Shown in pieces: positions 3,975-36,944 of a DNA stretch of 64,000 bases. Below the pieces are notes generated by a model. It was given only the letters and a program-made list of their open reading frames with translations, did not search any database and was not told where the DNA came from. The position numbers and the translations under genes are program-made. The DNA is from Saprospiraceae bacterium (GTDB lineage Bacteria; Bacteroidota; Bacteroidia; Chitinophagales; Saprospiraceae), in the NCBI GenBank assembly GCA_013214355.1, contig JABSSL010000004.1, positions 1 through 64,000 on the forward strand, in the 5' to 3' direction. The number at the start of each line of letters is the position of its first letter. The first letter of the stretch is position 1.

Positions 3975-5008
3975 ACGTCCAGCGCTATTTTGAGTTGAAT
4001 TGTAAAAGTATCTTCGGTATCGCTTATCTGCAGATCACTTTTTTCACCGTAAATCAAGGAAAGGCGTTTCCGCACGTTTTGGATGCCAATTCCACCAACT
4101 TCGTCCTTTTCTTGCGGTTTTTTCTCATTACTGACCGTAAAAGTAAGGTAAGTACCTTCTTTTTGGGTATGAATACACATTGGAGCAGCTGGATTTTTGA
4201 GGTTACCGTGCTTGAAGGCATTTTCTACAAAAGGGATCAATAGAAAAGGGGCGATTTGGAGAGAAAGCACATCACTAGCAGCTTTAAAATCAATTTCGGG
4301 CTCAAAATCCAATCGCATTCTATGTAGGTCAATGAAGTCATTGAGGTAGCCAATTTCTTTCTTTACACTCACCTGCTCAGCTTTTTCATACAGTGCATAT
4401 CGCAGCAAGCCGGATAGTTTTTTAACCGACTTTAAGGCATTATCGGATTTATAGTAAATCAGGGAATAAATGTTATTGAGGATGTTAAAGAGGAAATGAG
4501 GGTTCAGTTGCGAGCGCAACAAGGATAGTTCGGTCTTTTGGCTTTGTAAGATCAATTCTCTTTGCTGGACTTCTTTGTACTGGGCATACTGAACGAAAAA
4601 GAAAACCACTCCCAGGCTGACGTAAACGAAGGCGAAGTAGAGGTTGTCAAAAATGTATCGCGATAAGGAGGTGCCCGCCGGGTAATTCCGCACATTGAAA
4701 AAGGTGGGACCAAGGATTTCCTCCAAAAAATAGCGGAGAAAAATGGCCGCAAGCACTACCAGAGGGATGAGTACAAAAGACAGGTACTGCTTTTCTTTTT
4801 TATAGGTTTTGAAGAAGAGCCAGTAGGCACCAAAGGAATAAGCATACAAATAGATAAGCGTTGTCAGGAATCCTAGGAAACTTAACAGACTGGTGAAATC
4901 TTCGGTTAGCCTCGAGAAATCACCCGTCTCCATGATAACGCGCAAGGGTTCATAGATAAAGTAGAATAATAGAAAAACTAGGGTTAGTGACTTGATCTTG
5001 AATTTCAT
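3968..5008 (-). CDS. LytS-type sensor histidine kinase
   Basis: Membrane histidine kinase of the His_kinase (LytS/YehU) class. Four to five hydrophobic segments fill residues ~5-145; then a short coiled linker leads to the phosphorylation box SQLNPHFLFNILNN (His ~171). The ATP-binding part has the N box PFVENAFKHG and the G box GGIGIQNVRKRL, so it looks active. There is no extra sensor domain beyond the membrane segments. First gene of a two-gene operon with the overlapping LytTR regulator. It is divergent from the TraB/GumN-like gene at 5241. Confidence 0.94.
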   Translation of the reverse strand: MKFKIKSLTLVFLLFYFIYEPLRVIMETGDFSRLTEDFTSLLSFLGFLTTLIYLYAYSFGAYWLFFKTYKKEKQYLSFVLIPLVVLAAIFLRYFLEEILGPTFFNVRNYPAGTSLSRYIFDNLYFAFVYVSLGVVFFFVQYAQYKEVQQRELILQSQKTELSLLRSQLNPHFLFNILNNIYSLIYYKSDNALKSVKKLSGLLRYALYEKAEQVSVKKEIGYLNDFIDLHRMRLDFEPEIDFKAASDVLSLQIAPFLLIPFVENAFKHGNLKNPAAPMCIHTQKEGTYLTFTVSNEKKPQEKDEVGGIGIQNVRKRLSLIYGEKSDLQISDTEDTFTIQLKIALDVC

Positions 5009-23576: not shown

Positions 23577-23972
23577 ATGGAAAAACTGAAGTTAGACGAT
23601 TTGCAATTGAAGGTTATGCAGGTTTTGTGGAGAGAAGGAGAGGTAGGGGTAAGTGGGATTCAGGAGCAACTCAAGGCCAAAGAAGATCGTGAATTAGCGA
23701 TTACTACCTTGAATACGGTACTGCAACGATTGTACAAACGCGGGATCGTTAACTATCGAAAAGAAGGCCGGCAGTACATTTATCGCGCTGAGGTGACGGA
23801 GAAAGAAACGCAATCTTCCATGGCTTCTAGTTTGATCGATAAACTCTTTAAGGGGAAATCTTCCGTTTTGGTGAACCACCTGTTAGAATCATCCGCTTTT
23901 GATCAGGATGAATTGGAAGATTTGAAAAGAAAGATCGCTGCCGCTCAACAAAAAAAGAAAGACAATGAGTAA
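23577..23972 (+). CDS. BlaI/MecI/CopY-family repressor
   Basis: Winged-helix repressor of 131 residues. The N-terminal DNA-binding domain shows KLDDLQLKVMQVLWREGEVG, then ITTLNTVLQRLYKRGIVNYR (recognition helix region) and the wing EGRQYIYRAEVTEKE; the C-terminal helices (SALIDKLFKG-like, LLESSAFDQDELEDL) form the dimerisation part cleaved in BlaI. It directly follows two palindromic operators of the family's type, so it very probably represses its own operon. The end overlaps the M56 peptidase gene by 8 bp, the usual BlaI-BlaR1 arrangement. Confidence 0.93.
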   Translation: MEKLKLDDLQLKVMQVLWREGEVGVSGIQEQLKAKEDRELAITTLNTVLQRLYKRGIVNYRKEGRQYIYRAEVTEKETQSSMASSLIDKLFKGKSSVLVNHLLESSAFDQDELEDLKRKIAAAQQKKKDNE

Positions 23973-25872
23973 TCTCTTGAATGAATATAACTTGCTAGCG
24001 TTGGGGCTGACCTATCTCTTGCATAGTTCCGTATGGATCTTGCTCGTCGGCTTTGTAATAAAGGCTAAATTTTTGTCTTCTGCGTTTATGGAAAATGCCC
24101 TTTGGAAGGTGGCCTTGATAGGAGGACTTTTTACCACCTCTATAGCCCTAGGAATTGGCCAGCACCAGGTAGAATTGAACAAGCCGATCGCCGAGGAAAT
24201 ATCACTGCCTTCGGAAAGCGTAGATCAACATAAGCCGCTTGACCACACCGTGACTGCTACTCAAATGTTAGAAGGAGAGCGGGAGGAAACCTTAGACTTA
24301 GAGCATCCAGTGAGGAAGGAAGGAAGCCTAGGCCTAGAAAAATCTAGTCAGAACAAAGAGAACTGGAGCTTAGTGCCCTTGATACCGATTAGCTGGGGAG
24401 TAATAATGTTGTTGGTTTTACTGTATCGGACAGCGCAACATCTCTGGTTTTTCCGTCAGCTTGGCCAACGCAAAGTAGTAAAAGACCCGACTGTTTTACA
24501 TATCATGAAATCTATTCAGCGAAGGACTACCAGGCCGATCCAATACCGGATTAGTGCCAGTCCTTTTCTGGATAGTCCCATCGTCATCCGAGGGCGTGAA
24601 ATCTGCTTGCCTAGTATGGCACTGCAAACGATGAATCAGGACCAATTAGAAGCAATGATCGCCCACGAATGGGCCCATATTATTCGCCGAGATCATCGCT
24701 GGGCCTTGTTCTTAAGCTTGCTCAATACCTTTTTCTTTTTCCAGCCTTTACACCGCCTAGCCAAGGAGGGAATCGAACGGACGAATGAATTATTGTGCGA
24801 TCAGCAGGCAGCACAGCTGACTGGCAATGCTTTGGCGCTGGCAGAGTGCCTAGTGGCGGTAGCCAGCTGGATTAAGCCCGTTCCGCGCAAACCTTTACTG
24901 GTAGCAGGAATGGCGCTACGGAAATCAGAATTATCCTCTAGAATTACACAATTATTAAACATACCCGACATGAAAATTCAAAAGTTTAGAAAACTGAAAC
25001 TAGGCGTACCTAGCCTATTGCTATTGGCGGTAACCATTGTAGTATTGCCAGGCTTTCGCTTCGTTTCACAACCGGTCAATCTAGAACCAGTATCCGAACA
25101 GGCAACACCCTTAGCCAGCCCTGCTGTGGCCTTAAGCCCAGAGGATGTAGCGACGGATAATGCTGTTCCATTACTTGATGAAGCTAGTGACGTAGCGGAA
25201 TCTGAAGGTACTAGTGTAGAAGCAGGCTTAACAGAAATTAGCCAAGAGGCTATTAGGCTTCCTGAAACCATGCTTAGCCTGCAGACTTTAGCCAGTCAAT
25301 CGGTTTCCGAAGTACAGTCGATTCAGGCTGGTACCGCAGAAAAGGTGCAATTCGCAGCACTACCTATTTCTTTTCCCTTAAAGAAGGCTACTTGTGCAGA
25401 TCTGCTACGCGCTGTTAAAGCTGGTAAGGTCAAGCTGGTACAGGAGTTATTGAAATCAGTTGACCCAGATTGTGCTTACTATGATGAGGGCGAACCTCGT
25501 TCTTCCTTAGTAGCAGCAGCGCGCATGGGCAACATGGAAATTACCAAATTGCTGCTCGGCGCCAAGGCCAGTGTAGAATACAAAGCCAAGGGAGATGAAA
25601 GCCCACTCATGGCTGCGGCCAACTACGGTAATCTGGATCTCGTAAAACTGCTGGTAGCCAGTGGTGCTAAGATCAACCGCAAAGTAAGTGGCGATGGGAC
25701 AGCCCTCATCGGAGCAGTTCGTGGCGGACACTACGAGGTAGCAAAGTTCCTATTGGAAAAAGGCGCCAATCCTTTCGCCGTCGTTTCCGGAGATGAATAT
25801 GCCATGTATCACGCCCGGATGAACGAAGACAAAAAGATGATCCAGTTGCTCAAAAAATTTGAAGATGAGTAA
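23965..25872 (+). CDS. BlaR1-like M56 peptidase with ankyrin repeats
   Basis: Integral membrane zinc protease of the M56/BlaR1 family, 635 residues. Membrane segments lie at ~12-33, ~47-64 and ~140-155. The cytoplasmic protease domain has the zinc motif HEWAH (234-238) and downstream NELLCDQQAA with the third-ligand Glu. A fourth membrane helix is near 345-362 (LGVPSLLLLAVTIVVLPGF). Where BlaR1 has a periplasmic penicillin sensor, this protein has a ~100-residue low-complexity stretch and then about four ankyrin repeats (~470-632, e.g. SPLMAAANYGNLDLVKLLVA, TALIGAVRGGHYEVAKFLLE). Presumed role: sense a signal and cleave the BlaI repressor encoded upstream. Confidence 0.9.
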   Translation: MSNLLNEYNLLALGLTYLLHSSVWILLVGFVIKAKFLSSAFMENALWKVALIGGLFTTSIALGIGQHQVELNKPIAEEISLPSESVDQHKPLDHTVTATQMLEGEREETLDLEHPVRKEGSLGLEKSSQNKENWSLVPLIPISWGVIMLLVLLYRTAQHLWFFRQLGQRKVVKDPTVLHIMKSIQRRTTRPIQYRISASPFLDSPIVIRGREICLPSMALQTMNQDQLEAMIAHEWAHIIRRDHRWALFLSLLNTFFFFQPLHRLAKEGIERTNELLCDQQAAQLTGNALALAECLVAVASWIKPVPRKPLLVAGMALRKSELSSRITQLLNIPDMKIQKFRKLKLGVPSLLLLAVTIVVLPGFRFVSQPVNLEPVSEQATPLASPAVALSPEDVATDNAVPLLDEASDVAESEGTSVEAGLTEISQEAIRLPETMLSLQTLASQSVSEVQSIQAGTAEKVQFAALPISFPLKKATCADLLRAVKAGKVKLVQELLKSVDPDCAYYDEGEPRSSLVAAARMGNMEITKLLLGAKASVEYKAKGDESPLMAAANYGNLDLVKLLVASGAKINRKVSGDGTALIGAVRGGHYEVAKFLLEKGANPFAVVSGDEYAMYHARMNEDKKMIQLLKKFEDE

Positions 25873-26000: not shown

Positions 26001-26726
26001 TCATCCTCCTAGTTTCTCAAACACCTCCTTCTTGTAACTCCCCCCAATGGGTATTTCCTTCTCCTCTATTTCAACATCATGCGCCGTGTAGGCTGTTACT
26101 TTTTGCGTATTCACGATAAAGGAACGGTGTATTCGTAAAAAGTAGCTCGGCAGTTTTTGCTCAAACTCACTAATCTTTTCCTTGGTGGTGATGCTACCAG
26201 TTGCTTGATGAATACGGATATAGTCTTTTAAACTTTCAATGTATTCCACATCTTGGAAGGAGACCTTAATCCGCTTTTTATTGGCATTGACATAAAGGAA
26301 AGTATCCTCCGGGGCTTCGCTGGTAGGAACAGCTTGGGGAGCGGGTGGGCTGACTGGAGCGACTTGGTGCTGATTGAGGTATTTATTGATGGCTTTGAAA
26401 AAGCGGGTGAAGGTAATGGGTTTGAGCAGGTAGTCCACGACCTCTAATTCATAGCTCTCAACAGCATACTCTCGATAGGCTGTGGTGAAAATGATGCTAG
26501 GTGGATGCTGAAGTGATTTCACGAATTCAATACCCGTTAATACTGGCATCTGGATATCGAGGAAAACCAGGTCAATTTGTTCTTTCTTCAAGAGGTCAAA
26601 GGCTTCCAAGGCATTTTGGCAGGCGGCCACAATTTCCAATTGCGGAAGTCGCTCGATATGCGCTTGTATCAATTGCAGAGCCAAGGGCTCATCATCCACA
26701 ATTAAGCATTTTACCTTTTTACTCAT
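26001..26726 (-). CDS. LytTR-family response regulator
   Basis: LytTR response regulator starting at the ATG whose TGA overlaps the end of the kinase-like gene (ATGA, 26723-26726); an upstream in-frame ATG at 26774 is less likely. Receiver domain: CLIVDDEPLALQLI, phospho-acceptor in LVFLDIQMPVLTG, and TTAYREYAVE/DYLLKPIT. A linker rich in Pro and Ala (~130-145) precedes the LytTR domain: VEYIESLKDYIRIHQATG, YFLRIHRSFIVNTQKVTA and the ending PIGGSYKKEVFEKLG. Third gene of a three-gene operon with two LytS-like proteins. Confidence 0.94.
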   Translation of the reverse strand: MSKKVKCLIVDDEPLALQLIQAHIERLPQLEIVAACQNALEAFDLLKKEQIDLVFLDIQMPVLTGIEFVKSLQHPPSIIFTTAYREYAVESYELEVVDYLLKPITFTRFFKAINKYLNQHQVAPVSPPAPQAVPTSEAPEDTFLYVNANKKRIKVSFQDVEYIESLKDYIRIHQATGSITTKEKISEFEQKLPSYFLRIHRSFIVNTQKVTAYTAHDVEIEEKEIPIGGSYKKEVFEKLGG

Positions 26727-27769
26727 AATTGTACGTTTAGGGTAGCATACAGTCGATTCGGTTCGACCTTCCAATCTAGTTGATGTCGGTCTGGATAAAA
26801 CCAGTTCAATTGCTGCTGGAGGGCGGAGGATTCTTTTCCATAATTGCTTCTCACTTGAGTACTATTGATAGCGACACTTAGTTCTTGATCTCGATAATCC
26901 ATTTGGAACTTGAATTCGAAATCTTCTTGCTTAGATCTATCCTCTTGTACCAACGCATTTTCCACCATAGAGAAGAGTAGGAGTGGCTTAATTTGGGCAC
27001 CATTTACTTCTTCCGGCCAGGTTAGATGGAGCCTCATATTACCGTTTTGGCGCAGCGTCTCAATTTCAAAAAAGGTCTGCAAAATTTCCACTTCCTGCGC
27101 CAATGATACTTGCTTAGATTGCGTCTGATATAACATATAATCCAGCATATCTGATAAGCTGGCAATCAATTCTGGAGCTGCATCGGATTGCGCTACACTC
27201 AGCCGGTGAATAGTTTTTAAGGTATTGGAGAGAAATCGAGGGTGCAATTGGGATTGTAGCGTGTCCAATTCAACCTGTATTTTTTCCTTTTCCAATTCCT
27301 GGATAGCTGCCTTACGTTCGAAGGATTGCTTGATCAACTTCAAGGAAGCAAATGTCAATGGGACCCAATAGACCCAAATCACATAGAAGGCATCTATTTG
27401 TTGGAAACGTAAGAATATATCTCGCCAGCTGGTACGTTCCGCTGCCGGCGCAAAATTGGGGATCAACAAGTGATCTATAATTCCATGTGTAAGTGTACTG
27501 AGCACATAAAAACTCACCAATAAGGAAGATAAGAAGGCTACAATTTTACCAGTATAAAGCAATTTTGGTAGTTGGTAATATACCAAGAGGTAAGCGGCAA
27601 TCATTTGGGTGGGGAGATAGAATAGTTTAATGATTAGAGCTTCGGCAAAAGACTGTTCCATACCCAGGGACAGAATGGGATAGGATAGCAGTATCCCTAA
27701 CCAGAAAAGGGTATGGCTAGCCCAACGATTGCTTAGTAGGCGGGTCATTGCTGTGTTTACGACTTCCAT
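26723..27769 (-). CDS. LytS-like pseudokinase
   Basis: A 348-residue homologue of the kinase just upstream, with the same plan (about four membrane segments, coiled linker, phosphorylation box, ATPase domain). Catalytic landmarks are altered: the box reads QLHPRFLSNTLK (Arg168 where kinases have the phosphorylated His; HPHFLFN in the neighbour), the N box reads MVENALVQED instead of MVENAFKHG, and the G-box region is SSALQQQLNWFYPDRHQ with no GIG. The membrane part is well preserved (e.g. KLFYLPTQMIAAYLLVYYQL). So it should not bind ATP or phosphorylate; it may act as a partner of the active kinase. Start and stop overlap both neighbours (TAATG and ATGA). Confidence 0.88.
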   Translation of the reverse strand: MEVVNTAMTRLLSNRWASHTLFWLGILLSYPILSLGMEQSFAEALIIKLFYLPTQMIAAYLLVYYQLPKLLYTGKIVAFLSSLLVSFYVLSTLTHGIIDHLLIPNFAPAAERTSWRDIFLRFQQIDAFYVIWVYWVPLTFASLKLIKQSFERKAAIQELEKEKIQVELDTLQSQLHPRFLSNTLKTIHRLSVAQSDAAPELIASLSDMLDYMLYQTQSKQVSLAQEVEILQTFFEIETLRQNGNMRLHLTWPEEVNGAQIKPLLLFSMVENALVQEDRSKQEDFEFKFQMDYRDQELSVAINSTQVRSNYGKESSALQQQLNWFYPDRHQLDWKVEPNRLYATLNVQL

Positions 27770-28881
27770 TAGCTGATCAGTTCCATCGCTTGGGTTTGTA
27801 AATGTATATCCAGGATTACTTCATAGCTTTTTGGTTCTTCATTGATTTGCAATTGGTACCTGCCTGGATATCTAAGTCCTAATTGCCGTTTGATATTGGC
27901 TACTCCAATTCCCTTTTTGTAAGCGGTCTCATCGATTTGTACTCTTTCCACTTTGCTGTTAAAAACGCGAAAATACAACTGTCCTTTTTCCACTCGAAGG
28001 CTGATATCTATAAGGGGCTTCCCCATATCTCCACTGGCACCATGTTTAAAGGCATTTTCCACCATAGATAGTAGCACCAAAGGGGCAATGGAAGTGTCCG
28101 GTTCATCAACTTTGTGCTCAAACGTGAGGTCCAGGCGATCTCCGTAGCGCAATAGCTCCAAATCAATATAGTTTTGCAACAACTGAATCTCCTTATGAAT
28201 AGGGACCTGGTCCGCTTTACACTCCTCAAACATATAATCCACGATTTCGGAAAGTTTCAAGACTAGCCTTGGAGTCATGGCCGACTTCTGCAGGCTTAGC
28301 GTGTAGAGGTTGTTTAAGGTGTTGAAAAGAAAATGTGGATGTAGTTGGGCTTGCAGGAAATTCAACTCGGCTGTAGCCTTTTCTTTCTGCAACTGTTCGT
28401 AGCGTCCCATCTCCGCAAAATGGGTTTTTAGCAGTTTTAGAATGATGGCCAAGGCAGGCGGGATCGCCACCCAAAGTAGGTACTGACCAAGCAAAGGGTA
28501 GACCTCAGTCAATATGGACCATATACTATCCTGCGTCAAACTGGGATCCATGATCGGTTCGTAGACATAGATCTTCATCCATCGAGCCAAGGCCGTATTG
28601 AAATACATATTGACTACTAACAGAAGCATGAAGGCTATGTACTTCCCTTTATAGATTTGCTGAGGTAGCTGATAATATAGTAGTAGATAGGTCGCGATAA
28701 TCTGGGGCGGCAGATAGCAAAGCTTATTCACTACCAACTCATAGAAATTATTCCCCCACAAAGAAGCATAGATCAACCATCCCAACACAAAGCTAAGCCA
28801 AGCCAACAGGTGCAAGAGCACTCGCCGTTCTAAAAGCTGTTGTATATAAGGTTGAAATCTATTCATGTCCTCAAAATACAA
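27769..28881 (-). CDS. LytS-type sensor histidine kinase
   Basis: Membrane histidine kinase of the His_kinase/LytS class, 370 residues. Four hydrophobic segments at ~23-42, ~53-72, ~81-95 and ~130-150; linker EQLQKEKATAELNFLQ; phosphorylation box QLHPHFLFNTLNNLY (His ~183); N box MVENAFKHGA; G box KGIGVANIKRQLGLRYPGR. All catalytic parts are intact. It is the first gene of an operon whose second product is a degenerate copy of it and whose third is the LytTR regulator. Divergent from the hydrolase at 29096. Confidence 0.94.
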   Translation of the reverse strand: MYFEDMNRFQPYIQQLLERRVLLHLLAWLSFVLGWLIYASLWGNNFYELVVNKLCYLPPQIIATYLLLYYQLPQQIYKGKYIAFMLLLVVNMYFNTALARWMKIYVYEPIMDPSLTQDSIWSILTEVYPLLGQYLLWVAIPPALAIILKLLKTHFAEMGRYEQLQKEKATAELNFLQAQLHPHFLFNTLNNLYTLSLQKSAMTPRLVLKLSEIVDYMFEECKADQVPIHKEIQLLQNYIDLELLRYGDRLDLTFEHKVDEPDTSIAPLVLLSMVENAFKHGASGDMGKPLIDISLRVEKGQLYFRVFNSKVERVQIDETAYKKGIGVANIKRQLGLRYPGRYQLQINEEPKSYEVILDIHLQTQAMELIS

Positions 28882-29095: not shown

Positions 29096-30505
29096 ATGAA
29101 ACAGCTAAATTTTATTGCCACCTTACTTATCGCTTTCTTTAGTCTTACTGCCGTTTTCGCTCAACAGGCCCAGCCACTAGCGGATACGGATAAAAACCGA
29201 ATCCAAGAGAAAGCAGATTCCCTTCTACAACAGCACATCGCCTTACAGGAAATGGTTGGTGTATCTGCTGGAATCTACTACCAAAGAGAAACCATCTGGA
29301 AAGGCGGCGCTGGTTATCGAGATTTGGAAAACCAATTGCCTGCCACCGGCGAAATGCGACACCGTATCGCTTCGATCACCAAACCCATGACGGCCGTCGC
29401 CATTATGCAATTGGTAGAACAGGGAAAGATTGAACTAGATGTTCCCATTCAGACCTATCTGAAGGACTACCCACGCAAACCGGAAGGAGACATTACCGTT
29501 CGACATTTGTTGGGCCACGTATCAGGTACACCTTTTTATGGTAGCAAGAAGGAAGGGTTTCCAACTATGCATTTCAATACTTTGGATGAGGCGATTGATT
29601 TGTTTAAGGATCGTCCCTTGAAGAATAAGCCTGGTACAGCCTATGTATATAGTACCTATGGATACACGATTTTAGGTAGTATCATAGAAAAAGTGACCGG
29701 ACAGCATTATGCAGACTACATGAAAGAGAAGGTGTGGAGTGTGGCAGGAATGCCAAATACGCACCTAGAGATTTTTGGTGAATCCTATCCCAATCAGTCC
29801 CGACTGTATAAGAAAAATAAGAAGGGAAAATTCGTTTCGGATAAGCAGACAGATTTAAGTCTAAAATATCCTGGAGGTGGATTGCTATCTACCGTTCAAG
29901 ATCTCTTGAACTTTGGTAAAGCGGTCCTAGATAATGAGTTGGTTACGAGAGAAAGCTTAGAGCAAATGGGGCAACCAGCGGATGTGGAGTGGAAAGGGAC
30001 GCCCTACGGTTTAGGTTGGTATCTGGTGAAAGATGAGGTGTATGGGCGAATCCTTCGCCATGGAGGTCGGCAGTCTGGAACCAATACTTACCTCAGTGTT
30101 TTCTTGGATCATGATCTTGTTGTAGCCGTTTTGGCGAATACTTATGATGCTAGTGGACCTGTCTATAGCCTACATGAACACCTCCGGAACATGGCTGTAA
30201 ACGCCGAGCAACGTTCTGCTCCAATTCGACCAATCGTTAGCATGAGTAAGAAACAGCTAAAGCCTTTTGTTGGAAAATACGATTTCGGAAAAGGCCAGAT
30301 CATGCATATCTCGGAAAAGGCCAACTTGCTACATTCTAAGTTGGGCCAATATCCACTCACGCCACTTTATGCGGAAGCACAGCAAAAGTTTTTCTACCGA
30401 GGTTTTGATGGACAGCTAGAGTTTGTGAAGAATGACCAGCAAGAAGTCGTGAAAGTGATCTTTTACCAACAAGGTCGCCCTGTTGAAGGCAAGCGGCTAG
30501 ATTAA
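29096..30505 (+). CDS. Secreted beta-lactamase-fold hydrolase
   Basis: Serine hydrolase of the beta-lactamase/DD-peptidase superfamily, 469 residues. Signal peptide (residues 1-22, ending AVFAQ). Catalytic SxxK at S93-I-T-K96 (RIASITKPM); second motif region YVYSTYGYTILGSIIEKVTG; third motif HGGRQSG near 321. The ~100 residues at the C-terminus (VGKYDFGKGQIMHISEK onward) form a lipocalin-like extra domain of the DUF3471 type. Substrate unknown. It is divergent from the kinase/pseudokinase operon (214 bp between starts) and may be one of its targets; that is inference. A strong hairpin follows. Confidence 0.88.
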   Translation: MKQLNFIATLLIAFFSLTAVFAQQAQPLADTDKNRIQEKADSLLQQHIALQEMVGVSAGIYYQRETIWKGGAGYRDLENQLPATGEMRHRIASITKPMTAVAIMQLVEQGKIELDVPIQTYLKDYPRKPEGDITVRHLLGHVSGTPFYGSKKEGFPTMHFNTLDEAIDLFKDRPLKNKPGTAYVYSTYGYTILGSIIEKVTGQHYADYMKEKVWSVAGMPNTHLEIFGESYPNQSRLYKKNKKGKFVSDKQTDLSLKYPGGGLLSTVQDLLNFGKAVLDNELVTRESLEQMGQPADVEWKGTPYGLGWYLVKDEVYGRILRHGGRQSGTNTYLSVFLDHDLVVAVLANTYDASGPVYSLHEHLRNMAVNAEQRSAPIRPIVSMSKKQLKPFVGKYDFGKGQIMHISEKANLLHSKLGQYPLTPLYAEAQQKFFYRGFDGQLEFVKNDQQEVVKVIFYQQGRPVEGKRLD

Positions 30506-30575: not shown

Positions 30576-33500
30576 TTAATTCACTTTCCTTCGATTATCC
30601 TCTGGCTGTATATCGATCAGCTTATGATAGGGATCAATCCCTGCCTCTATTGGCCGTTGATCCAAACGGATCGAAAATACAGTGTCCATGCTTGTCATCT
30701 TATGCCTGTGTATATAAATGGGTAATCGCTCTCCATCTTGCTCCTGCGCTCCAAAGACACCAATCTCAATGTAATCTTGTAAGGGCAGAGAGTGCTGAAC
30801 TTTACCACCATCCCGCGTTACACTTAGAGAATCTAGCTGGTTATCACTATACAGCCGGTTACCGTAGCCATCACTCCTAAATTTCCCGGCTTGCACGCGT
30901 AGCTCCAACACATAACTACTATCAGCCAATTGTTCCCAGTCCGTTTCCACTACCTTATTATCATAGAGTGTAATCGTTTCAAAAAAGTCTTCCAATAGAT
31001 AGGATAGTGTGTCTGGGACGATTTCGGCAATCGCATCTCTTAAGCCCAGGGAATGCGGTAGGGGAGGACCGTGGTGGGTATGTTCAGATAGATAAGCAGC
31101 AAAAACCGTGTTCAAGCGCTCCTCTCCCAAGAAATCGCTGAGGGCGTAGAAAAGGAGGGCGCCTTTTTGATAATTGACGTATTCTTGATGAGGATATGCG
31201 GTAAGTAGAGTAGGTTCTTCCCCTCGTTCATTCGCACGACCCTCCAAATAGAGATCCAGATCATGGCGCAGGAAACGGCGGATCATCGCTTTCCCATATC
31301 GCCTTTCAAGGACTTTAAGCCCTACATATTCTGCCATGGATTCAGTCACCATTTGCCCGCCTCTAATATTGGCTGGATTCACTTGGTGCCCCCACCAGTG
31401 ATGGGTAGTTTCATGAGCAGAGATATAGTAGGGTAGATCGATACCATCGGTAGAGATATCGCCAATCCAATACAACTCGGAATAGGGCATCAAATTACCC
31501 ATCACCGTAGCAAAGGTGCCTTCGGTACGAGGATATTCTACAATTCGTATTTCCTTATGTTGATAAGGGCCAAAATACTGAGTGTTGTAGTCTAGGGACG
31601 CTTTTACGCCTTCTATGATACTGTTCAAATTGTAGGTGTGATCGGGGTGATAATAGACTATGATGTCTACCTCTTTCCATTTGTCTTTTTGTATAGCAAA
31701 CTGGCCAGAGTGGAAACTGTATTGTGGCGTAATCGGGCTATCGGTCTGATAATGAAAGTATCTTCGACCATCCTTTTCCCATTCTCGCTGTAGGATGCCA
31801 GGGGCTAAAGCTACTTGTTCTGGACGGGTGGATACAATGGCTTCTAATTCGATCCAGCCTATTTCATTGCCAGGATAAGCATAGCCCAAGGCGGTGCTGT
31901 CTGTTGGCAGAGGTAGGTCAGTATCTCTTGGGGGAAGGCCATGTTGTTTACGCTTTTCATTGTCTGTCAATTCTACGGCTCTATACCCTAGTTTAGGAAA
32001 TACTTGACTGCCTAAGAAAGTTCCATTCTGTATGACTCGAGGGTCGGTGTGAAAGAAGCTATGATCTTCACTTGCCACTTGAAATTGCAGGAGCAGGCTA
32101 TCTCCGGGCATCATCGGTTTTTTCAATTGTATCACATCAAATTTGATGAGCGTATCTTGTACCACAAAGGTGTGAGGCCAAGTCAATTGGTAAGTACTTT
32201 TTTCGCGATAGCTATGCGCTATCAATAAGGTGTCCATGACTTGTTCAGATGTGTTGATAAGGGTGTAGGTCCCTTTGGCGGAGAACTGCTTTTGTTCTGG
32301 ATATAGATCCACCGCTACTTTCACCCTGGAGAGTTGGGGCTGAAGGACATTTTCATAGCGCTTGTAACGTTTCTCGTTCTCTACCTTAAAGGTGGTCTCA
32401 TCCTCATCGCTAACCCGTGTTTTATGCCACACGTTTTCCTCCAAAAAGATTGAAGTGCCCAAGGATAAGAATACCATAAGTGAAAGGGCTAGTCCCAGTC
32501 TGACAGGTCGGTCCATCCTCCTTTTTGCGATAGCTAATCTTTCCCGAAAGGAGAAAGCAATGCCTCTAGTCCGGAAAAGGTAAGCGACTATCAATAAACC
32601 AAAACCGCCAACTAACCAGTAGACCTTATACGCCCAATAGGTAGGTAAATAGGAGCCGTATTGATTCAAGTCTGAATAGTTGAACCCGATTACGAAGCCT
32701 GGTACTTGATTGTACCAAAACACCTCCTGCTTCAAAAAACTCAAACCTATCCGGTCTACTAAACTTGGTAAAGTGATCATGCCCATGGGGATTAGGAGTA
32801 GCAAGAAGAAACCTAAATAGGGGTTTGATAAAAGACTCTGGATGCAGATGGCCAGGCACGCCCATATGATAAAATGAATCAAATACAATCCATAGACTTC
32901 AAAAAAGTACAGGCCAAATTGAAAATCATAGAATCCATTGATCATTTGCACCGTCACCCCTGCAATGATGATGAAGGATAGCAGCAGCATCTGAATCTTA
33001 ACCAATGCGATCACCTTAGACAGGAGAAAGGCCCAATTGGGCAAGGGACTGATATCTATCAGATGGTTCATGCGATGGAGGCGGCCTCTATGGAGTAGTA
33101 AGCCGGCGAAGAGGAAGGTGATCAAGTTGACGAGGCCAGCGTAGATAAAACTGGGGATGTGCAGCATTTTCCAAGTCATCGGTAGTAACTTAAAACCGTA
33201 AGCAGCATTCATTTCAACTTGTTGGAAGAAGATGGCCAACAGTCCTCCCAGCACAATGCTAATGAAGGACCAACTTGATACGATTTCTCGAAAGTCAAAA
33301 CTCGATAGCTGCCAAGCGGTGCGCAATTGATGGAGTGGCGTAAAATTGAATTGCACGGTAGGCAATTGGATATCGATGATGGGGCCCAGCTGACTCTTGA
33401 CTAACTGCTGACTTGGCTTTTTCTTACTAGAGCGTGAGAAGGCTTGTTGCTGAAAAGAGAAGTAGCGGAAAACGAAACCAAAGATGATCAAAGCAATCCC

Positions 33501-34238
33501 TGTCCACAAAAGTCTATTGTAGAGGATGACACCAGTAAGCGGTAAAGGCAAAGTATTGCGTTCCGCCAGGGTCCAATGGCGGGTATAATACTTCACGGCC
33601 TCATCCCCTAATGGATCCAATAAGGCGGCTAGATAGCGCCATTCTACGCCTTTGAATATACTTTCAATGATCAGCTGTAGGATAATGATCAGAATGACCG
33701 CCACAAATCCAGCATAGATATTTCTGCTGAAGCTCACAATCGCAAAAACAATCGCTCCAAACAGAAGAATATTGGGGATTAGATACAATCCATACAATTG
33801 AGCATAGGCAAGCACATCAAACGGCACTACGGCTTTAGCATTGACGCCTGGAAGCGCTGCCCCAAGGGCGAAACCCAGACCAATCATGGTGGTTATAATG
33901 ATCACAACAGTAACTGAACTAAGGAGTTTCGCGAGTAGATAATCTCGTTTTTTGAAAGGGAACGCATAGAGTAGCGTGTACATTCTGCTTTGAAAATCCC
34001 GATAAATAGACAAGCCAATTATCGAGGGCAATAAGAAGAGCATGAGGGTGTTGAAGAGATTCGCCATGACATTGATTTGGCGTGGCGAATTGATGATCCG
34101 TACCACCTCAGAAGAAGCCTCCGCTGCCATGCCCCACATCGTTCCTAAAGAAATGACCAGAAAGAAGGCCGCATAGATATAGATGACCGGCTGACGTAGC
34201 CAGTGACGGAATTCGTATCGGAAGATCGTATGAAACAT
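30576..34238 (-). CDS. ABC permease fused to M1-type metallopeptidase
   Basis: A 1220-residue fusion. Residues ~1-600 are membrane: two ABC-2-type permease-like blocks (e.g. LLPSIIGLSIYRDFQSRMYT, LLYAFPFKKRDYLLAKLLSS) with about 12 helices in all. Residues ~610-1210 form an extracytoplasmic M1-family peptidase: zinc motif HETTHHWWGH (about 940) followed by the downstream Glu in VTESMAEYVG, which is the normal HExxH-18-E spacing. The usual GxMEN exopeptidase motif is changed to TVMGNLM, so it may not be an aminopeptidase. It pairs with the ATPase gene 37 bp upstream, giving one transporter-peptidase operon. Substrate unknown. Confidence 0.9.
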   Translation of the reverse strand: MFHTIFRYEFRHWLRQPVIYIYAAFFLVISLGTMWGMAAEASSEVVRIINSPRQINVMANLFNTLMLFLLPSIIGLSIYRDFQSRMYTLLYAFPFKKRDYLLAKLLSSVTVVIIITTMIGLGFALGAALPGVNAKAVVPFDVLAYAQLYGLYLIPNILLFGAIVFAIVSFSRNIYAGFVAVILIIILQLIIESIFKGVEWRYLAALLDPLGDEAVKYYTRHWTLAERNTLPLPLTGVILYNRLLWTGIALIIFGFVFRYFSFQQQAFSRSSKKKPSQQLVKSQLGPIIDIQLPTVQFNFTPLHQLRTAWQLSSFDFREIVSSWSFISIVLGGLLAIFFQQVEMNAAYGFKLLPMTWKMLHIPSFIYAGLVNLITFLFAGLLLHRGRLHRMNHLIDISPLPNWAFLLSKVIALVKIQMLLLSFIIIAGVTVQMINGFYDFQFGLYFFEVYGLYLIHFIIWACLAICIQSLLSNPYLGFFLLLLIPMGMITLPSLVDRIGLSFLKQEVFWYNQVPGFVIGFNYSDLNQYGSYLPTYWAYKVYWLVGGFGLLIVAYLFRTRGIAFSFRERLAIAKRRMDRPVRLGLALSLMVFLSLGTSIFLEENVWHKTRVSDEDETTFKVENEKRYKRYENVLQPQLSRVKVAVDLYPEQKQFSAKGTYTLINTSEQVMDTLLIAHSYREKSTYQLTWPHTFVVQDTLIKFDVIQLKKPMMPGDSLLLQFQVASEDHSFFHTDPRVIQNGTFLGSQVFPKLGYRAVELTDNEKRKQHGLPPRDTDLPLPTDSTALGYAYPGNEIGWIELEAIVSTRPEQVALAPGILQREWEKDGRRYFHYQTDSPITPQYSFHSGQFAIQKDKWKEVDIIVYYHPDHTYNLNSIIEGVKASLDYNTQYFGPYQHKEIRIVEYPRTEGTFATVMGNLMPYSELYWIGDISTDGIDLPYYISAHETTHHWWGHQVNPANIRGGQMVTESMAEYVGLKVLERRYGKAMIRRFLRHDLDLYLEGRANERGEEPTLLTAYPHQEYVNYQKGALLFYALSDFLGEERLNTVFAAYLSEHTHHGPPLPHSLGLRDAIAEIVPDTLSYLLEDFFETITLYDNKVVETDWEQLADSSYVLELRVQAGKFRSDGYGNRLYSDNQLDSLSVTRDGGKVQHSLPLQDYIEIGVFGAQEQDGERLPIYIHRHKMTSMDTVFSIRLDQRPIEAGIDPYHKLIDIQPEDNRRKVN

Positions 34239-35330: not shown

Positions 35331-36944
35331 TTGCTGGTTTTTCCTTTTCTTCAGCCTAGAAATTATTCCTTCATAGAATTATTAGCATTGATACCAAAGA
35401 GACTCCAAGGCGGGCTAGACAAGGTAGCGGACTTTCTGACGAGACAGTCAGCCTGGATCTATGTGGTACTCTTCCTCTTCCTAAGCTATCTGTTAATGCT
35501 TACCGTGACGAAGGATAGTTGGGCGGGTTATTTGTCCAACTTTGCTATTCTTTGTGGGCTATATCTCCCTGTCTTGTTGTATAGCATGTTCCGATCTTTT
35601 GCTCGTACAGGTAGATGGCCAATGCTGCTTAGGGCTTTGTGGGGCTACTGTTTTATCGCCCATTCTTTCGTACTGTACCATTATCGGACGAGCTTGGCGA
35701 GTTGGGGTGGCTTCTTAGATGGGATAAAGATTGCGGATAGCGGATGGGATAACTTCATCCCAATCATTGGCGGTGTAATCTTGCTGGTAGAGTTAAGTAT
35801 CTTGCTAAGTGATAACCTACAACGGGGATTGCTTCCCATGAAGTGGTTGGAAACGCTAGGGCTCGAAAAAGTGATTCTACTCATCTTGGCCTTGCTCACG
35901 GTAGTGGGGGCAGGATTCACAACTTTTGACTACCTCTACCATGCTCAGCATACTGGAATAGGTGCGGTGGTAGTGGGTATCGGTGTATTTGTACTAGATA
36001 GTTTACAACTATTTTTGATCTACTTGATTAACTACTTCTTCTACTATATCAATCACTATTTTTTGATCCCAAGGATATTCAAGGAGAAAGGAGTGGTTTA
36101 CTATGGCTTTGCCGTTGCTGGCTGCATCTTGCTGTTTTATCCCATCTTCGTGACCTTGATGAGCTATTTGCCATTAGTAAAGCGAATGGAATTCGACCGT
36201 TTTACGGCAACGACTAGTATCTTTTCTGCGGATGGAGGAGGTTTACCTTTTATGATCATGGTGCTGAGTGTGCCTGTGATTATTGCTTATGAATGGTTCC
36301 GCCAGGATAAAGAATTGGCCGTGTTGGAGAAAGAAAAAACAGCTACTGAACTCAGCTTATTAAAGCAACAGATTAATCCGCACTTCTTCTTTAATACCCT
36401 CAATAATCTGTATGCCTTGAGCATCACCAAAGATGAACAGACGCCAGAGGTAGTACTGCAATTATCAGAACTTATGCGCTACGTAATCTACCGAGGTAAA
36501 GAAGAGCAAGTAAGCCTGGAAGAAGAAATTAAGTATATCGAGGACTATGTGCAATTGCAGCAAATTCGCCTACACAAACAGCTAGATTTTCAGTTTGAAA
36601 AGGACCTTTCTGATCCGATCCCCAATGTAGCTCCCCTTTTGTTTATTGTCTTAGTGGAAAATGCCTTTAAACATGGCATAGAACCTGCCGAGAAGCCCTG
36701 TTATCTGCATCTAAATTTGAGATCGAGGGATGGACAAATAGAATTCGTTTGTGAAAACGCGGTGGAGCAGGCTTCAGATACGGAAGGAGGGATTGGGTTA
36801 GAAAACCTCAGGCGACGCCTTGCTTTACTGTATCCAGATAGGCATCAATTACAGATAGAAGCAGGGCCCGATTGCTACAAAGTAAATCTGAGGCTGAATG
36901 CTATAGTTCCACATCCAATCACTCAATCAGAAGAGAACGCATGA
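35331..36944 (+). CDS. LytS-type sensor histidine kinase
   Basis: Membrane histidine kinase, 537 residues, larger than the other two because of a long N-terminal membrane region with about seven helices (residues ~40-325). Phosphorylation box KQQINPHFFFNTLNNLYAL (His ~345), N box IVLVENAFKHGIEP, G box GGIGLENLRRRLALLYPDR: all intact. The listed start is a TTG; the first in-frame ATG is at residue ~52, inside the first membrane helix region, so TTG is preferred. Its end overlaps the regulator's ATG (ATGA). Divergent from the ABC-M1 operon, which is a plausible target. Confidence 0.92.
   Translation: MLVFPFLQPRNYSFIELLALIPKRLQGGLDKVADFLTRQSAWIYVVLFLFLSYLLMLTVTKDSWAGYLSNFAILCGLYLPVLLYSMFRSFARTGRWPMLLRALWGYCFIAHSFVLYHYRTSLASWGGFLDGIKIADSGWDNFIPIIGGVILLVELSILLSDNLQRGLLPMKWLETLGLEKVILLILALLTVVGAGFTTFDYLYHAQHTGIGAVVVGIGVFVLDSLQLFLIYLINYFFYYINHYFLIPRIFKEKGVVYYGFAVAGCILLFYPIFVTLMSYLPLVKRMEFDRFTATTSIFSADGGGLPFMIMVLSVPVIIAYEWFRQDKELAVLEKEKTATELSLLKQQINPHFFFNTLNNLYALSITKDEQTPEVVLQLSELMRYVIYRGKEEQVSLEEEIKYIEDYVQLQQIRLHKQLDFQFEKDLSDPIPNVAPLLFIVLVENAFKHGIEPAEKPCYLHLNLRSRDGQIEFVCENAVEQASDTEGGIGLENLRRRLALLYPDRHQLQIEAGPDCYKVNLRLNAIVPHPITQSEENA

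Follow-up and report, generated by a model that had tools for sequence, protein, structure and literature searches.

A histidine kinase and a conserved pseudokinase encoded in tandem with a LytTR regulator in Saprospiraceae: a candidate asymmetric membrane heterodimer

We analysed a stretch of 64,000 nucleotides (the window: positions 1 to 64,000 of contig JABSSL010000004.1, assembly GCA_013214355.1) from the 11.2 Mb genome of a Saprospiraceae bacterium, labelled here G000, of genus g1. On its minus strand lie the genes of a membrane histidine kinase, of a second protein of the same family without the phosphorylatable His, and of one LytTR response regulator (Table 1). The original prediction had described this cluster as two tandem LytS-like genes followed by a single regulator, and the gene order was indeed found to be so. 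The single-base overlaps that it reported are correct for the first junction, where kinase and second gene share 1 base (TAATG), but not for the second, where the overlap with the regulator gene is 4 bases (ATGA). The kinase gene, whose stop ends at 27769, starts either at an ATG at 28866 (365 amino acids, aa) or at a TTG at 28881 (370 aa). Both membrane proteins exceed the curated Pfam cut-off for PF06580 (25.2 bits), with scores of 80.2 bits for the kinase and 67.8 bits for its neighbour. The LytS-like membrane plan first proposed is a loose wording: beyond PF06580, no 5TMR-LYT domain was matched by Pfam in either protein at an E value of 0.01, and the models point to some four membrane helices. 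NCBIfam likewise gave no match at E 0.01 for either protein. In the regulator, Pfam recognised a receiver and a LytTR domain, and Asp57 in LDIQMP is the phosphorylation site by homology.

The kinase contains the full motif set that had been announced for it (HPHFLFN, VENAFKHG and GIGVANIKR). The corresponding motifs of the second protein are HPRFLSN and VENALVQE, with no GIG, the G-box segment being missing from it in the alignment. The kinase has the phospho-acceptor His of the H-box, whereas its neighbour has Arg178 at this position. Motif loss in the second protein was correctly predicted for the His and the G-box; in the N-box, described only as changed, the Asn (position 271) is kept and the flanking KHG alone is lost. 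The genome encodes 77 PF06580 proteins; 76 have the His and only this one lacks it, which indicates that Arg178 is not a chance substitution. In our trees 48 of 48 kinases also keep the His, but partly by construction, because the rows of the first tree set were chosen with a regular expression requiring P[HRK]; the count of 76 in 77 is unaffected. By coordinates, the two genes are the only directly tandem pair among the 77 matches. The second protein, which has lost its acceptor and ATP-site residues and whose gene is under purifying selection (see below), can be classed as a pseudokinase (PSK), although in the window it retains the N-box Asn. The 77 matches represent a large expansion of the family, two others lying within the window itself at 4307-4534 (minus strand) and 36345-36581 (plus strand). 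Altered H-boxes that keep the phospho-His were seen at two further G000 loci, L180 (C214:52700-54200) and L186 (C58:500-7000), in the forms PHFFFHAL (Asn to His) and DKHFLTN (Pro to Lys).

Table 1. Coordinates of the kinase, pseudokinase and regulator genes, of marker codons and of the divergent neighbour in the window.
Feature	Position	Strand	Basis
Membrane histidine kinase, active-type PF06580	27769..28881	-	Open reading frame and motifs; Pfam PF06580 E 1.4e-22; orthologues
Kinase His178 codon, phospho-acceptor position by homology	28333..28335	-	Sequence; His in 17/17 paired kinases
Kinase codon 214, Glu (Tyr in single relatives)	28225..28227	-	Sequence; column counts
Pseudokinase (PSK), 348 aa, PF06580 without phospho-His and G-box	26723..27769	-	Pfam PF06580 E 1e-18; AF2 model pLDDT 82.9
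PSK Arg178 codon (CGA), phospho-His position	27236..27238	-	Sequence; 9 g1 and g85 orthologues: Arg 8, Lys 1
PSK Tyr214 codon, end of DHp helix 2	27128..27130	-	Sequence; Tyr in 17/17 PSKs
PSK His95-x3-Asp99, PSK-specific membrane-part residues	27473..27487	-	Type-A PSKs: His95 13/14, Asp99 14/14
LytTR response regulator, 241 aa from ATG 26726	26001..26726	-	Pfam Response_reg 1.8e-22, LytTR 2.4e-19
PF00144 serine hydrolase, divergent syntenic neighbour, possible target	29096..30505	+	Pfam E 4.6e-69

We searched for further PSKs with a four-PSK profile in 298 genomes of the family and with a seven-PSK profile in 398 genomes. Kinase-PSK pairs of this kind (type A) were found in 14 genomes of four genera among the 398 sampled. 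In g1 the operon is present in all three congeners of G000 (two uncultured Lewinella metagenome-assembled genomes, MAGs, and one Saprospiraceae MAG); their PSK identities are 86, 80 and 46%, and each has the Arg. In g85, five of nine genomes have the PSK, in the same kinase-PSK order, and position 178 is Arg (4) or Lys (1). The g105 PSKs (3/6 genomes) were found through the neighbours of partner-like kinases; their position 178 is His, Gln or Ala, and neither an N-box nor a G-box can be recognised in them. Two g25 genomes have Glu and Asp. An order-wide search of 396 genomes at a cut-off of 1e-85 gave no more PSKs, a cut-off that would miss those like the g105 and g25 ones. Every partner-clade kinase found in the 398 genomes (14/14, one of them a fragment) has the PSK directly downstream. 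The regulator gene follows directly 3' of the pair in 11 of the 14 cases, in two of which it is truncated by the contig or sequence end; the G180 and G225 sequences stop short of its position.

The original prediction had argued from the intact frame and operon that the PSK is not simply decaying. This view held up: an intact gene with Arg and without G-box occurs in the orthologous operon of 4/4 genomes of the genus, and the PSK genes in the search results have no internal stop. In the two closest g1 pairs the PSK dN/dS was 0.085-0.089 (NG86; the third pair was saturated and excluded), well below the value of 1 that had been set as a check; the kinase gave 0.052-0.059 and the regulator 0.03-0.06. 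In four pairs from g85 and g105 the PSK had 0.11-0.16 and the kinase 0.08-0.14. All these values are approximate because dS is high in many pairs. The opposite outcome, relatives with intact kinase motifs and a decayed gene in the window, was looked for and not seen. The membrane part of the PSK, first described as well preserved, is better conserved than its ATP-binding domain: between G000 and the congener G003, PSK identity is 0.50 for the membrane part, 0.63 for DHp and 0.35 for the ATP domain, the kinase values being 0.57, 0.71 and 0.68. The N-box Asn is present in the window PSK and in two congeners, but the third congener and ten other type-A PSKs have D, S, A, T or Y, so that it is lost in 11 of 14, the N-box stretch being barely alignable in g105 and g25. 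None of the 14 has a G-box. In g105 and g25 the whole ATP domain is barely alignable, with identities to single kinases of 0.11 and 0.16.

In a tree with nine PSKs, all fell on one branch (support 100/99), which was also recovered without the H-box and ATP domain (97/96) and, more weakly, from the membrane part alone (86/93). Twelve PSKs again gave 100/99. In a larger tree, with 14 PSKs and other tandem pairs, the partner kinases formed a clade with 98/99. The rows of these trees include a fragment (G355 kinase) and two kinases shortened at the start (G083, G181). A duplication within the genus, which would group the kinase and PSK of g1, was rejected (approximately unbiased test, p 0.007). 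Beyond the tree, a common origin of the PSKs is supported by synteny and by their shared His95 and Asp99 (counts in Table 1); position 95 is Arg in 28 of 31 other kinases.

Other tandem pairs were met incidentally, not by systematic survey. In g86 (G286 and G181; loci L205 and L121) a kinase is followed by a second protein with HPNFLLS or HPNFMLS and then by a regulator (type B). These second proteins have lost the N-box Asn and keep Tyr214, and their kinases have Glu or Ala at 214. Strong matches to the g86 second protein (E < 1e-200) occur only in G286 and G181 among the 398 genomes, the next match being a single kinase at 4e-56. The order is reversed in G120 (L204 2589-3665), where the dead member comes first (NPNLLFN, Tyr214 kept) and the intact kinase second, with Asn214. 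In two pairs, one in G019 and one at a second G180 locus, both members are kinases that retain the His as well as the N-box Asn. The tree requires no fewer than two changes to account for the dead state. A special role of the Arg, such as Arg phosphorylation, was ruled out by the K, Q, A, E, D and N found at the site in other PSKs.

We then compared the 17 PSKs (14 type A, two type B, one from G120) and their 17 kinases with 31 other kinases. Of these 31, 27 have no second PF06580-like open reading frame nearby (the downstream side is nearly or wholly missing in G230, G332 and G124) and four come from pairs with both members intact. Position 178 is His in all paired kinases (17/17) and in 1/17 PSKs. 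Tyr214 behaves in the opposite way: it is present in 17/17 PSKs, in 31/31 other kinases and in 3/17 paired kinases, the strongest PSK-favouring column of the 57 that are conserved in the 31. Further such columns are Ser206 (1.00 vs 0.41) and Leu209 (1.00 vs 0.59), in the same helix as 214, and Phe22 in the membrane part (0.71 vs 0.07). Trp30, Glu43, Lys98, Tyr102 and His149 are specific to the kinases. Identity to 12 single kinases was also measured helix by helix within DHp. For helix 1 the kinase and PSK values were 0.78/0.53 in g1, 0.78/0.55 in g85, 0.63/0.25 in g105 and 0.75/0.38 in g25; for helix 2 they were 0.45/0.65, 0.52/0.80, 0.28/0.39 and 0.39/0.41. Each partner therefore keeps a different helix, clearly so in g1 and g85 and weakly in g105, the helix 2 difference being nil in g25. 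On the tree, position 214 changed at least five times. All non-Tyr residues at this position belong to paired kinases, whose share of the kinase branch length is 28%.

In its AF2 model (pTM 0.53), the PSK shows the order of helices and strands expected for DHp followed by an ATP domain. In the models the two DHp helices span residues 177-192 and 197/198-215, and residue 214 would therefore lie beside residues 175-178 in the hairpin. The top two Foldseek matches of the PSK model are GanS kinase entries, with AgrC, RetS and DivL lower. GanS is also the sole PDB sequence match of the kinase at an E cut-off of 0.01.

We consider it probable that kinase and PSK combine into a single asymmetric heterodimer in the membrane, which controls the co-encoded LytTR regulator. 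This reading is drawn from the two conserved, differently marked membrane domains, from the presence of full catalytic motifs in the kinase only, and from the overlapping operon; within the PSK, the membrane part and DHp (chiefly helix 2) are better kept than the ATP-binding domain. The heteromeric or regulatory role first proposed gains from the clade-wide co-occurrence and the reciprocal residue loss, which suggest it. In such a complex the PSK would contribute half of the DHp four-helix bundle and may bring a second sensor input through its membrane part. Phosphorylation would be in cis, the kinase using its own ATP on its own His178, since the PSK can neither donate nor accept the phosphate. 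The phosphate would then pass to Asp57 of the regulator, which may use its LytTR domain to act on its targets, the divergent serine hydrolase gene perhaps among them.

A more specific version, which we regard as tentative, is an obligate heterodimer with composite sites between subunits. If a helix 2 residue works across subunits, on the partner's His, a heterodimer that is fixed would have one live site, kinase His178 with PSK Tyr214, and one dead mirror site, PSK position 178 with kinase position 214, both halves of which would be free to decay and have decayed on both sides. Such an arrangement may have more than one origin: one in type A, with its four genera, one in type B that is perhaps separate, and an independent one, with reversed order, in G120.

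Several observations weigh against these two proposals. Tyr214 is still present in three paired kinases, and the p value of 0.0018 for its loss in paired kinases only, obtained if changes are random, becomes about 0.1 because the column was picked by scanning 57 conserved ones. An independent-pairs test offered two or three pairs, too few for significance. Among single paralogues of the G000 genome, Tyr214 occurs in 26 of 30 close ones and in none of 45 distant ones; it is therefore a trait of the subfamily, lost in some lone kinases. GanS has Gly at 214, another sign that the Tyr is lineage-specific. With 14 PSKs and the other tandem pairs in the tree, a single PSK clade received only 79/29. 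The G290 PSK keeps His at the site, and in G355 (L107 1895-2202) another gene, not the regulator, follows the pair, the best regulator match of that MAG (58% identical) lying on another contig. A stronger claim, that Tyr214 is essential in all such kinases, was dropped as unsupported, given the Gly of GanS and the lack of Tyr in 4/30 close and 45/45 distant paralogues.

The strongest rival, though in our view an unlikely one, is that the PSK is a brake, forming non-productive heterodimers with an otherwise homodimeric kinase or holding it in a phosphatase state in the manner of RetS and GacS. It would have the same anatomy, and a heterodimer could not autophosphorylate if the kinase works only in trans; the RetS/GacS precedent is cited in PMC12675982, and the Foldseek matches of the PSK model include RetS chains. 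However, if the kinase had also to work as a homodimer, its helix 2 and Tyr214 should have been conserved as in its closest single relatives, whereas only 3/17 have the Tyr, an objection weakened by the lone kinases without Tyr214. It would also be odd for a mere brake that the kinase is never seen without the PSK (14/14). The DHp helices of histidine kinases, helix 1 included, are docking surfaces for regulators. The PSK might instead target the regulator, its helix 2 binding the LytTR protein at the membrane and holding it inactive, as do the membrane inhibitors of LytTR regulatory systems. Systems of this class are described in PMC6193735. In the PSKs of g1 and g85, helix 2 is indeed the cytosolic part that most resembles single kinases, but helix 1 is less kept in the PSK and the loss of Tyr214 from the partner kinase would remain unexplained, so we consider this proposal improbable. 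Cryptic catalysis, with another acceptor or another nucleotide chemistry, would fit the N-box Asn of the window PSK and two orthologues and the matches of the PSK model to kinase structures including the ATP domain; against the absence of the G-box from all type-A PSKs, the loss of the Asn in most of them and the near-unalignable ATP domain of g105 and g25, it appears very improbable. Least credible of all is a recently duplicated kinase in decay, since, although in most of the pairs compared the PSK is the faster-evolving member, chiefly in the ATP domain, its frames are open in 14 genomes of four genera, its dN/dS is far below 1, it has conserved residues of its own, and the kinase/PSK split predates the genus.

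The closest known system is streptococcal FasBCA. Like the window operon, it combines tandem membrane kinases with one response regulator, and one partner is a proposed pseudokinase (PMC12675982); the window gene order is of this FasBC type. In group A Streptococcus, two-hybrid assays gave evidence of FasB/FasC heterodimers and not of homodimers; FasC is a proposed pseudokinase in which H246 is needed and the kinase domain alone is dispensable, and the regulator FasA is described as ComE-like (PMC12675982). The two systems seem to differ in the membrane part, which has six transmembrane domains in the Fas proteins (PMC12675982) and about four here. FasC keeps its phospho-His, which 16/17 of the PSKs described here do not. 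Unlike in Fas, all chemistry should lie in one subunit here, because the PSK has lost both acceptor and G-box. RetS, acting on GacS, and DivL, acting on CckA, are likewise kinase-like proteins that act on another kinase. CovS and CovR, the partners of another pseudokinase, RocA, belong to other families, and rocA lies outside their operon. RocA, like the PSK, is a pseudokinase located in the membrane; it modulates its partner sensor kinase CovS, with which it is reported to co-immunoprecipitate, although a two-hybrid assay with full-length RocA was negative, and it differs in keeping its predicted His (H246), which is dispensable (PMC7028121). ChrS, a frameshift pseudokinase, is a further precedent, but no heterodimer signal of significance was obtained with the truncated protein itself (PMC9491836). 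In the open-licence full texts searched we found no paper on LytTR with a pseudokinase, nor on a Saprospiraceae histidine kinase with LytTR, and largely nothing on a LytS or histidine kinase pseudokinase or heterodimer in Bacteroidetes. BtsS belongs to PF06580. Systems of the LytS/BtsS type share with the window operon a LytTR regulator served by a kinase of this general kind, but LytS-like kinases are all described as having the 5TMR-LYT input domain (PMC10653868), which Pfam did not find here.

A PF00144 hydrolase is found upstream of the pair in the window, in G003, in the g85 genomes G315, G242 and G180 and in three g105 genomes, separated by one gene in G180 and g105. The divergent intergenic region was aligned across the four g1 genomes, and we claim no promoter or LytTR site in it. 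A BlaR1-type M56 peptidase with C-terminal ankyrin repeats fused to it is encoded at 23965-25872 (plus strand); in other genera, stand-alone ankyrin proteins lie divergently upstream of related single kinase/LytTR pairs (L072 4641-5783 and L076 4451-5317). A 1220-aa protein at 30576-34238 (minus strand) combines weak ABC-2 permease-like matches, which fall below the Pfam cut-off, with an M1-peptidase match that lies at it.

As kinase and PSK both pass the PF06580 cut-off, Pfam match counts overstate the number of working sensor kinases. Paired and single relatives, a graded loss of catalysis and reciprocal residues together make this family a natural experiment on DHp residues that may act across the dimer interface and on phosphorylation in cis.

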